A stretch of 64,000 bases of DNA from NCBI GenBank assembly GCA_021785515.1, contig JAJYEX010000001.1:783640-847639 (forward strand). Reading direction: 5' to 3'. The notes under the pieces are model-generated. The model ran no database searches. It saw nothing but the letters and a program-made list of their open reading frames with translations, and had not been told where the DNA came from. A program made the position numbers and the translations under genes. Shown here piece after piece: positions 33,631-37,456 of this stretch (positions are counted from its first letter, which is position 1; every line of letters begins with the position of its first letter). This DNA is from Pseudomonadota bacterium. Lineage in GTDB: Bacteria > Pseudomonadota > Gammaproteobacteria > Acidiferrobacterales > UBA6901.

Positions 33631-34560
33631 TCAGTAAAGTGGCGGCTGGCCGGGCGGACGCGTCTTGAATCGGCGGTGTGCCCAGAAGTACTGCTCGGGC
33701 ATTTCGCGCACCCCGGCCTCGATCTCCTGATTCATGCGCTGTGCGTCGACGACATCGTTACCGCTGGGATAGTGCGTCATCGGCGGTCGGAAAAAGACCT
33801 CATAGCCGCGGCCATAGGGAAGCTGGCGGCTGAAACAGGGCAGCACGATGGCGCCGGTCAGCTGTGCGAGCCTGCCGAGCGACGTCAGGGTCGCGGCCGG
33901 CACCCCGAAAAACGGCGCAAATACCGCACCATGGACACCCTGATCCTGATCGGGAAGATAATAAAATGCGAGACCATGCCTGAGACTGCGGACCGCTGGC
34001 CGCAGCCCTTCCATCCGCTCAATCATGACGCCGCCGAAGCGCGTGCGCCCCTGGGAAATTAGGTAGTCCAGCAAGGCGTTTTTCGGCCGTTTGTAGAAAC
34101 TCGCGAAAGACGCGTGCCGACTGCTCGCCAGATAGATGCCTCCGATTTCCAGGCTCACAAAGTGCGGAGCCAGCAGAATGATGCGGCGGCCAGCGGCAAG
34201 CGCGTCGTCCAGATAATGGCAGTTGCGGCAACGCACCAGCCGATTCAGGCGTCTGACCGAACCCCACCAAGCGATGGGCACGGTCAGCGTGGCACGCATG
34301 AATTCGCGGAAGTGGCGTCGTGCGAGGATCTTGCAGGCGCGATCATCAAGCTCGGGAAAACACAGGCGCAGGTTTACGCGGGTGATATGACGACGTTCCG
34401 CATGCAGCATATAGAACAGCGTCCCGATCACACCGCCCAGCGCCCAGATGACCGGCAGGGGAAGCAGTGCAGCCGCCCGCAGGAATCCGTATCCCAGCCA
34501 GCTGGGCCAGAAGCGGGGATGGAGAAAAAGGCGCCCAGGTTTCCGCTCAGGCTCGGTCAT
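33631..34560 (-). CDS. Lipid A biosynthesis acyltransferase, paralogue 1 of 3
   Basis: Member of the LpxL/LpxM/HtrB family that transfers a secondary acyl chain to lipid A on the inner face of the inner membrane. The 309-residue protein has an N-terminal membrane segment (YGFLRAAALLPLPVIWALGGVIGTLFYML), the catalytic HX4E motif in LAPHFVSLEIGG, an RFGGVMIER block, and YYLPDQDQGVHGAVFAPFFGVPAATLTSLGRLAQLTGA, where the family keeps a conserved Asp. It is the last of three tandem minus-strand paralogues. Start at 34560, 5 codons after the track ATG: it places the ATG in the same 14-bp overlap found between paralogues 2 and 3. It ends QPPLY and lacks the YD tail of the other two. Confidence 0.88.
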   Translation of the reverse strand: MTEPERKPGRLFLHPRFWPSWLGYGFLRAAALLPLPVIWALGGVIGTLFYMLHAERRHITRVNLRLCFPELDDRACKILARRHFREFMRATLTVPIAWWGSVRRLNRLVRCRNCHYLDDALAAGRRIILLAPHFVSLEIGGIYLASSRHASFASFYKRPKNALLDYLISQGRTRFGGVMIERMEGLRPAVRSLRHGLAFYYLPDQDQGVHGAVFAPFFGVPAATLTSLGRLAQLTGAIVLPCFSRQLPYGRGYEVFFRPPMTHYPSGNDVVDAQRMNQEIEAGVREMPEQYFWAHRRFKTRPPGQPPLY

Positions 34561-35470
34561 AATAGCTAGGCGCATCGCCTGGTCTTGTCTTGAAACGCTT
34601 GTAGGTCCACAGATATTGTTCCGGTATCTCGCGCACCGCGTCCTCGATTGCGGCGTTGAGGCGGCTTGCGTCCCCGAGGGCGTCGGAGGTAGGGAAGTCC
34701 CGAATCGGCGGCTTCATGATCACCTCATAGCCACGACCAAACGGCAGCAGGCGCGTGTAGCACGGAATCACGATTGCCTGCGCCAGCCGCGCCATGCGAC
34801 TGGGGGCGGTGAGCGTAGCGGCCGGCACACCGAAAAACGGCGCGAACACATAGCCTGCGTTACCAGGCTCCTGGTCCGGGAGGTAGTAGAATGGCAGGCC
34901 CTGGCGCAACAACCGGATCAGGGGAAGCAGATCGGAGCTGCGCTCGATCATCACACCACCGAAACGCGACCGGCTGCGCCGCATGACGTGATCGAAAACC
35001 GGATTGCGGGGGCTTTTGTACATGCTTACCATCGGCCGTTCCTGCGACAGCCGCAGGCCGGCGATCTCAAGCACCGCGAAGTGCGGAGCCAGAAGAATGA
35101 CGTGCTTCCCAGCGGCAATGGCGGCATCGAAAATCCCGCGGTCGCGAAATTGCACCAATCGCTGCAGGCGGGCGCGCCGCCCCCACAGCGAAACCCCCAT
35201 GCCGACGAAGGCCTGAGCCAGCGTCCGGAATGTGGCACGCCGCAATCGCCGGCGTGCCGCCGTGCTGAGCTCCGGAAGGCACAACGCCAGGTTCACGTCG
35301 GCTGTGCGACGCGCCCGGCTGGGAAAGAACGAGACCAGTTGCCCGATGACAGCACCCAGCACCCACAGCAGCGGCAGCGGCAGGACACCGAGGGCGCGCA
35401 AAATCGCAACGCCAGCCCAAGATGGCCAGTATCGCGGATGACCGAGAACTGACAACTCACTTCGAGTCAT
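34547..35470 (-). CDS. Lipid A biosynthesis acyltransferase, paralogue 2 of 3
   Basis: The 307-residue middle copy. Same layout as its neighbours: membrane segment (VAILRALGVLPLPLLWVLGAVIG), HX4E motif in LAPHFAVLEIAG, RFGGVMIERSSDL, and FYYLPDQEPGNAGYVFAPFFGVPAATLTAPSRMARLAQAIV. The start at 35470 (MTRSELSVLGHPRYWPSW) matches the N-terminus of paralogue 1 and gives a 14-base overlap with the stop of paralogue 3; the track start at 35566 would overlap far more. The C-terminus ends APSYYDRA. Closest in sequence to paralogue 1. Which lipid A position it acylates cannot be told. Confidence 0.88.
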   Translation of the reverse strand: MTRSELSVLGHPRYWPSWAGVAILRALGVLPLPLLWVLGAVIGQLVSFFPSRARRTADVNLALCLPELSTAARRRLRRATFRTLAQAFVGMGVSLWGRRARLQRLVQFRDRGIFDAAIAAGKHVILLAPHFAVLEIAGLRLSQERPMVSMYKSPRNPVFDHVMRRSRSRFGGVMIERSSDLLPLIRLLRQGLPFYYLPDQEPGNAGYVFAPFFGVPAATLTAPSRMARLAQAIVIPCYTRLLPFGRGYEVIMKPPIRDFPTSDALGDASRLNAAIEDAVREIPEQYLWTYKRFKTRPGDAPSYYDRA

Positions 35471-36503
35471 AGGGCGACGCACTGCCGTCGGGACGCGTCC
35501 TAAAATACTTAAATGTCCACATGTACTGCTCTGGTGCCTCCAAAACGTGACGTTCCAGCTCGACATTCATCCGACGAGTATCAGCTTCGAGGTCTCCACT
35601 CGGGAATCCGTCCAGAGCCGGGCCAAGGCGAACCTCGTAACCGCGGCCACGCGGCAACCGGTAGGTAAAGCATGGCACGACCACCGCGTCGCAGATCTGG
35701 GCGAGGCGGCCAAGCGTCGTCAGGCGCGCCACCTGGGTACCGAGGAAGGGCACGAACATCGAACCCTGTGCACCGAAATCCTCGTCCGGCAGGTAATAGA
35801 AACCTAAGCCGCTCTGGATTTCCCGGATGACGGGTCGCAGGCCCCGCTCCCGCTGTAGCATACGGCCCCGCGGGTCAAACCGCTTGCGCCCGGAAGCCAT
35901 GAACCAGTCGACCAGGGGGTTCTTCATGGGCTTGATCATGCCTAGCAGGGGAAAACGCGATGACATGGCTGCGGCCCCGAATTCCAGCGCCACGAAATGG
36001 GCCGTAAGAAGAATCATCCGGCGGCCCTGGTCGTACGGAACCTGATAGTGATTGAGGCCAGTTATGCGCACCAACCGATTGATTCGAGCTGGGCTTCCAA
36101 ACCACAACAACGGAAAATCCAGCAAACATCGCCCATAGACCCGAAAGTACCGCCGCACCAGTCGCGCCCGCTCACGGTTGTTCAGCTCCGAAAAGCACAT
36201 GGCCACGTTGATATTCGCGATACGCCACCGTTTGCGGTTTAAAAGCCGGTAGCTGTCGCCGGCGAGCCCACCGAGCAGCTCGCGGACCGGCCACGGCAGC
36301 AACGAGATCGCGCGCAGCAAACCGACACCCAGCCACACCCCCCAATATGCAGGAAGGAGGTAGGACGTATGAAATCGGGGAGCATGATAAGACGGGTCGT
36401 CGGTGCGCGGCGCCTCGTCAGGTCCAGGTGCGGCGCTCCGTGCAGACCCAATTATCGCCACTATGGCCCGCTTTATTAGCAAAATGTGGGGCGTATATAG
36501 CAT
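35457..36503 (-). CDS. Lipid A biosynthesis acyltransferase, paralogue 3 of 3
   Basis: First gene of the tandem set, 348 residues. It has the same family blocks: membrane segment (GVGLLRAISLLPWPVRELLGG), catalytic HX4E motif in LTAHFVALEFGA, FYYLPDEDFGAQGSMFVPFLGTQVARLTTLGRLAQI. It is the most divergent copy (KRFDPRGRMLQRERGLRP replaces RFGGVMIER) and carries an N-terminal extension of about 45 residues before the conserved YWGVWLG region; no better start codon is evident. Downstream it overlaps paralogue 2 by 14 bases. The promoter is expected in the AT-rich stretch just upstream. Confidence 0.85.
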   Translation of the reverse strand: MLYTPHILLIKRAIVAIIGSARSAAPGPDEAPRTDDPSYHAPRFHTSYLLPAYWGVWLGVGLLRAISLLPWPVRELLGGLAGDSYRLLNRKRWRIANINVAMCFSELNNRERARLVRRYFRVYGRCLLDFPLLWFGSPARINRLVRITGLNHYQVPYDQGRRMILLTAHFVALEFGAAAMSSRFPLLGMIKPMKNPLVDWFMASGRKRFDPRGRMLQRERGLRPVIREIQSGLGFYYLPDEDFGAQGSMFVPFLGTQVARLTTLGRLAQICDAVVVPCFTYRLPRGRGYEVRLGPALDGFPSGDLEADTRRMNVELERHVLEAPEQYMWTFKYFRTRPDGSASPYDSK

Positions 36504-36676
36504 ATAGACACCACGAATATCGGCATACCGACAAAATTGTATTCCATTACTCCCACTTTGTTATAAAATGCCTTGGAAAGGCGCTAACCATGCTTGTGTA
36601 ATAACTTATGACCAAAATTTAACCGTATTATTGGCTAAATAATCTACTTTTTCCCAAAAGCATGCGTTCTGTGCAC
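36504..36676. promoter_or_regulatory. AT-rich leader of the acyltransferase set
   Basis: About 170 bases clearly richer in A+T than the surroundings (for example TTATAAAATGCC and AAATTTAACCGTATTATTGG), between the acyltransferase start and the ttcA stop. Probably the promoter region of the three genes; no specific hexamer pair or operator can be set with confidence. Confidence 0.4.
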
Positions 36677-37456
36677 TTAATTACCGCTATTTGTGGGGGA
36701 GTAAAAAAATTCGCCGGACTGCATTATCGGTCGCATAGTGTGCAGCAGATTCTCGAACAGTCGCGGATGAAGGTGCTCCTCCCGCGCCAGCAATTCCTTC
36801 ATGTGCTGGCGCTGACTAGGCATCCGGAAACAGGCCGGACAGTTGTCCGCGATAACGGGTAGCTGCGCAGCCGCAGCGAAGTCACGGAGCTGGCGTTCTC
36901 GGACGTAAATGAAAGGCCGGATGACGCGCAGGTCCCCGGCATCATTGAGATAGTGGGCTTTCATGGTCCGCAGGCTGCCCCCATGAAAGGCGCTCATCAG
37001 GAAGGATTCCGCCAGGTCATCCAGGTGCTGGGCAAGAACCAACACGTTACAGCCATGCTCGCGGGCAGTCGCATAGAGAATTCCGCGACGCATGCGTGCA
37101 CAGTAAGCGCAGAACGACTTCCCGCGCATATTCAGCAGTGCCCGTTCCACAATCAGCTGGCGGCGATAATAATACGGTATGCCAAGCGCCGGTACATAGT
37201 CGCGCAGGGCCGTGGGGTCAAAACCCGCTATCCCGGGGTCGACGGTGGCCGCAGCGAGCGTGAACGGAATCGGCGCCTTGTTCCGCAGATGCAGGAGGGT
37301 GTGCAGCATGCTCATGCTGTCCTTGCCACCGGACAGCCCCAGCAACAAGCGGTCACCGGGCTGGATCATGTCGTAATCGGCGATCGCACCGCCCGCAGCG
37401 CGAAGCACTGCGCGTGGGGGGTGGCGGGCAAGGGACGGTGCGGTAGCGGCAACCAT
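36677..37456 (-). CDS. ttcA: TtcA-family tRNA 2-thiocytidine biosynthesis protein
   Basis: A 259-residue PP-loop enzyme of the TtcA family, which thiolates C32 of some tRNAs with an iron-sulfur cluster. Visible are the PP-loop SGGKDS (about residues 42-47), the CxxC pair CAYC (116, 119) in SFCAYCARMRRGILY, the LAQHLDDLAESFLM segment, and the CPAC pair (206, 209) near the C-terminus. E. coli TtcA is about 311 residues; this one is shorter at the N-terminus. It stands alone, divergent from the rhodanese gene. Rhodaneses can feed sulfur to tRNA thiolation, so the neighbourhood may be functional. Confidence 0.87.
   Translation of the reverse strand: MVAATAPSLARHPPRAVLRAAGGAIADYDMIQPGDRLLLGLSGGKDSMSMLHTLLHLRNKAPIPFTLAAATVDPGIAGFDPTALRDYVPALGIPYYYRRQLIVERALLNMRGKSFCAYCARMRRGILYATAREHGCNVLVLAQHLDDLAESFLMSAFHGGSLRTMKAHYLNDAGDLRVIRPFIYVRERQLRDFAAAAQLPVIADNCPACFRMPSQRQHMKELLAREEHLHPRLFENLLHTMRPIMQSGEFFYSPTNSGN

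Follow-up and report, generated by a model that had tools for sequence, protein, structure and literature searches.

The locus lies in a window of 64,000 nucleotides (the whole stretch of DNA that was analysed) and comprises three intact genes arranged head-to-tail on the minus strand. We letter them in the order of transcription, A, then B, then C, so that A starts at position 36503 and C ends at 33631. The features of the locus and of its upstream side are:

33631..34560, minus strand: gene C, late acyltransferase of 309 aa (PF03279, 235.6 bits)
34547..34560, minus strand: B/C junction, 14-bp overlap, with the ATG of C inside the TAT codon of the C-terminal Tyr of B
34547..35470, minus strand: gene B, late acyltransferase of 307 aa, the extra middle gene (PF03279, 216.4 bits)
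35457..35470, minus strand: A/B junction, 14-bp overlap, with the ATG of B inside the TAT codon of the C-terminal Tyr of A
35457..36503, minus strand: gene A, late acyltransferase of 348 aa (PF03279, 216.7 bits)
36536..36564, minus strand: sigma-70-like promoter match upstream of A (ATAACA-17-TACAAT, 9 of 12 matches), weak evidence
36677..37456, minus strand: upstream neighbour, a TtcA-like PP-loop protein (PF01171 and synteny)

The three proteins match PF03279 at 216–236 bits, against a curated cut-off of 22.3, and cover nearly the whole profile, which bears out, coordinates included, the sequence-only reading of three tandem late acyltransferase paralogues at 33631–36503. The HX4E motif, as that reading had also stated, is kept in all three (HFVALE, HFAVLE and HFVSLE), and each protein retains the residues equivalent to His132, Glu137, Arg169 and Asp200 of E. 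coli LpxL, which are needed for the function of that enzyme (PMC6286764). Protein identity is 51% between B and C, 45% between A and C and 39% between A and B; hence the earlier statement that paralogues 1 and 2 are the closest pair holds when the genes are numbered by coordinate, but in the order of transcription the pair is the second and the third. Identity to E. coli LpxL, LpxP and LpxM is 30–36% throughout, and gene A carries an N-terminal extension of about 40 aa that is common to the genus.

Both junctions overlap by 14 bp, ATGACTCGAAGTGA at A/B and ATGACCGAGCCTGA at B/C, and in both the ATG of the next gene (at 35470 and 34560) lies within an upstream Tyr codon, as had been described from the sequence. 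These two starts are backed by relatives; longer alternatives are a GTG for B, at an overlap of 26, and an ATG for C, at an overlap of 29. The equal lengths had been taken to indicate a tandem duplication that included the junction, an argument which the relatives do not sustain. The five genomes of the genus all have a 14-bp A/B overlap, while B and C overlap by 8 bp in three of them and by 14 bp in this genome only. Thus, the equality of the two lengths is a coincidence private to this genome: the junction reads TATGACTGA in G001, G002 and G004 and TATGACCGAGCCTGA here, where CGA replaces the TGA of the three relatives, so that B runs to the next in-frame TGA and its stop is displaced by 6 bp. 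The remaining relative (G003, locus L115) has TAC for Tyr and TAA as the stop and so lacks the embedded ATG; its start of C has apparently shifted to an ATG 15 bp upstream, giving an overlap of 23.

The position of the start codon is a different matter from the length of the overlap. Across the order, the ATG of the following gene lies within the TAT codon of the conserved C-terminal Tyr of the upstream protein at 58 of 74 internal junctions, and TAT followed by G occurs at only three of the 46 gene ends that close a cluster, where no further gene follows; the difference gives a Fisher p of 1e-15, a value that is not a true probability because the sequences are related. Overlap lengths are most commonly 8 bp (44 junctions), followed by 14 (8), 23 (7) and 11 (4). 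The start-in-Tyr-codon arrangement therefore exceeds chance, whereas the equality of two overlap lengths does not. Since the register is kept while the lengths vary, it is the stop that has moved and the start codon that has been conserved, which makes these junctions a neat case of an overlap that changes in length around a fixed start.

The order to which the genome belongs (probably Acidiferrobacterales) was surveyed through 57 genomes, this one included. Three adjacent copies are present in 27 of them and two in 20; the others have one copy or none, many of them on short contigs. Three-gene clusters occur in families f1, f2, f4, f5 and f7, and pairs in f1, f2, f4, f6 and f7. At E<=1e-45, three adjacent genes were found in none of 82 genomes sampled elsewhere in the class. 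The copy-number survey proposed with the sequence-only reading thus agrees with its view that three adjacent late acyltransferases are unusual, although within the order the arrangement is frequent. Moreover, the surroundings recur across families, with ahcY-metK-(rhodanese)-ttcA at one end of the cluster and tpr-ntrX-ntrY at the opposite end, and the TtcA-like upstream neighbour is retained in many genomes of the order; the recurring flanks point to one ancestral locus.

Profile comparisons place the three proteins close to the lipid A enzymes, and all score far higher for LpxL and LpxM models than for lysophospholipid acyltransferase models. The best NCBIfam model for A is the LpxM-type PRK08943 (266 bits, under its cut-off of 337), and A reaches 247.8 bits with the LpxM equivalog TIGR02208 (curated cut-off 336). 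B scores 256.5 bits with the LpxL-type PRK05646, again under the cut-off; with the LpxL/LpxP subfamily model TIGR02207, B obtains 242.7 and C 270.3 bits, both under 297.8, and for C this compares with at most 229 bits for LpxM-type models. None of A, B and C reaches the curated cut-off of the NCBIfam models for either LpxL or LpxM, and so these names denote resemblance here and not an established activity. We dropped the assignment of gene A as a plain LpxM, given the missed cut-off and the long branch of E. coli LpxM. In family f5, gene A scores slightly higher for LpxL. The AlphaFold models of A (pLDDT 87.8) and B (pLDDT 93.2) both have LpxM of A. baumannii (5KNK/5KN7) as their top match among solved structures, with probability 1.00; the best match for A is 5KNK, and B matches 5KNK/5KN7 at 2.3 A over about 253 columns. 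Gene C is tied to the same structure by sequence (phmmer to 5KN7, E=1.5e-21).

Collectively, we favour, at a probability of roughly two in three, the reading that A, B and C are an old operon of late acyltransferases which finish Kdo-lipid A and occupy one fixed locus in the order. Judging from the overlaps, the genes probably form a translation-linked operon, in which ribosomes ending one gene would restart on the next (termination-reinitiation), and the three enzymes would consequently be made in fixed proportion. Most likely, Kdo-lipid A receives two or three secondary acyl chains from these products, with each enzyme presumably taking its chain from acyl-ACP and attaching it to a hydroxyl carried by a primary acyl chain. 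A would carry out an LpxM-like step and C the LpxL step, and together they may represent the basic pair, as in two-gene clusters; B would be an extra LpxL-type enzyme, probably derived from an order-level duplication, that acts at another position or with another chain, by analogy with HtrB1 of Pseudomonas, which acts at position 2. The suggestion that the locus could produce a distinctive lipid A accords with this, in that we are probably dealing with an unusual set of lipid A enzymes. Our literature search found no lipid A structure or biochemistry for the order, and in it we recognised no paper describing tandem late acyltransferase triples or the lipid A of Acidiferrobacter. Lipid A acylation governs the tightness of the outer membrane, and a conserved three-gene operon offers a clean, testable set of paralogues for asking how late acyltransferases gain positions or chains.

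The feature is an order-level variant of a known tandem arrangement of late acyltransferases. In Bordetella pertussis, the adjacent lpxL homologues lpxL1 and lpxL2 share one operon with dapF (PMC7712016), which resembles the present locus in its adjacent paralogues but has two genes instead of three. The betaproteobacterial pairs that we examined show the same two-adjacent-gene arrangement; however, the upstream gene encodes a divergent type belonging to a different clade, and their junctions are mostly overlaps of 1–4 bp or gaps, without the TATG register. Vc0212 (LpxN) and Vc0213 (LpxL) of Vibrio cholerae (PMC3178793), an LpxM-like enzyme that uses a different chain and an LpxL-type enzyme encoded under neighbouring locus tags, correspond to one enzyme of each type, but only two genes are involved and the middle LpxL-type gene is missing. 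For the sharing of work between B and C, the model is Pseudomonas aeruginosa, whose paralogues HtrB1 and HtrB2 act at lipid A positions 2 and 2' (PMC10865791), although these are encoded at separate loci and one is thought to be horizontally acquired. E. coli LpxL, LpxP and LpxM belong to the same family and have the same catalytic residues, except for Asp in place of Glu in LpxM, but their genes lie at three separate loci.

The strongest alternative concerns B alone, which might serve under other conditions, as LpxP does relative to LpxL, by acylating the site of C with a different chain, for example at low pH or another temperature. B and C are each other's closest relatives among the three and both stand on the LpxL side, as do E. 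coli LpxL and LpxP, and the loss of the catalytic Arg or Glu from B or C in other families would fit overlapping roles. Overlapping and apparently co-translated genes, on the other hand, suit constitutive co-expression better than a condition-specific switch, and no promoter of its own was established for B or C, loose consensus matches being all that was seen. We therefore give this alternative about one chance in four. A fuller version of the preferred reading, for which we would claim only slightly better odds than that, has B filling a third acylation site of a translationally coupled operon of three enzymes; the resulting lipid A, for instance hepta-acylated or acylated at position 2, would suit acidic and metal-rich water. 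On this version the members have so divided their work in sister families that one could dispense with its canonical catalytic residues and yet be kept: A there shows HX4N, and C shows Arg replaced by Ile, either alone or together with Glu replaced by Lys.

The altered residues themselves are distributed by family. In families f6 and f7 and in part of f2, gene A has HX4N instead of HX4E/D while His and Asp are kept (L119, L123, L124, L128, L129, L132, L133, L137, L138, L142, L146, L148, L153, L155 and L161), and the Arg is also kept in all of these proteins except that of L133; the change appears to be conserved and to reflect an early loss of the catalytic acid. In family f4, Arg169 of gene C is replaced by Ile (Leu in L145), with Glu137 additionally changed to Lys in g18, and in family f5 the Arg position is occupied by Cys in C and by Met or Thr in B. 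The loci altered at Arg or Glu are L121, L131, L147, L139, L143 and L158 (third gene), L145 (second gene), and L122 and L127 (second and third). Which member of the operon degenerates thus appears to differ between families. The sister families with HX4N (as at cluster loci L123 and L124, in f6 or f7) or HX4K (as at L139) provide a natural experiment on which dyad residues the enzymes cannot do without.

With regard to the origin of the copies, our careful tree comprised 88 proteins (among them cluster genes, E. coli LpxL, LpxP and LpxM, and betaproteobacterial LpxL). A branch supported at 99/98 separates the first genes and E. coli LpxM from a side of 55 rows that holds the second and third genes together with LpxL, LpxP and betaproteobacterial LpxL, G005 and G006 being the exceptions. 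B and C accordingly fall with E. coli LpxL and LpxP, and A with E. coli LpxM, the branch of which is so long (3.3) that its placement beside A is unsure. A quick tree that included a distant acyltransferase clade had put that clade among the B genes, probably a long-branch effect, and the clade was left out of later trees. All middle genes of the order group at 88/88 in a lean tree, and in a wider tree they form a single clade at equal likelihood. Two-gene clusters mostly lack B; G005 and G006 lack A instead. The history is best read as that of an ancient A/C pair to which B was added once, at the level of the order, and losses followed. An old duplication on the LpxL side likely gave B and C, and it possibly included an ancestral TATG junction.

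A recent origin, by two successive duplications of one gene in this lineage that each carried the 14-bp junction along, is by comparison very improbable. Both junctions of this genome do share the TATG register and the length, and B and C are 51% identical, but the B/C overlap varies in length among sister genomes and triples stand at the same locus in five families of the order. Forcing A, B and C of the genus into one clade lowers the log-likelihood by 101 (AU p=0.0008), which rejects a recent triplication and already refutes a recent origin for A. When only the B and C genes of the genus are constrained to one clade, the log-likelihood falls by 19–23 units, at p-AU of 0.165 and 0.186; a genus-level B/C duplication is therefore disfavoured, and the AU tests do not reject it. 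The phylogenetic check of the sequence-only reading against LpxL, LpxM and LpxP thus went against a recent triplication, with A on the LpxM side, and left an old B/C duplication on the LpxL side as likely, not demonstrated. In two genera of the family of this genome (G005, locus L117; G006, locus L118), the cluster consists of two genes of the B/C side, gene A having apparently been lost.

Returning to the preferred reading of an old lipid A operon, its substrate is consistent with the rest of the genome, in which LpxK and the Kdo transferase have one strong match each, so that Kdo-lipid A is to be expected. Searches for LpxO were silent in this genome and likewise in control genomes, and the absence is thus uninformative. 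A, B and C are the only strong PF03279 genes in the whole genome and hence likely its complete set of lipid A late acyltransferases. That at least one of them has a substrate outside lipid A (a phospholipid, an ornithine lipid, or a capsule or polyene anchor), as had also been suggested, is highly unlikely: the fold does serve other substrates, PatA being matched by the models, and the genome does encode one distant PF03279 protein in another setting, but there is no further lipid A-type late acyltransferase, the three proteins score as reported above, and their neighbour genes hint at no other lipid. The setting outside lipid A belongs to that fourth protein:

L172:2921-8520, own genome, contig C1: distant PF03279 protein with an AMP-binding ligase and an MMPL exporter

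It scores only 27 bits, and its neighbours led us to reject it as a lipid A enzyme; its surroundings resemble what we take to be an aryl-polyene-type cluster.
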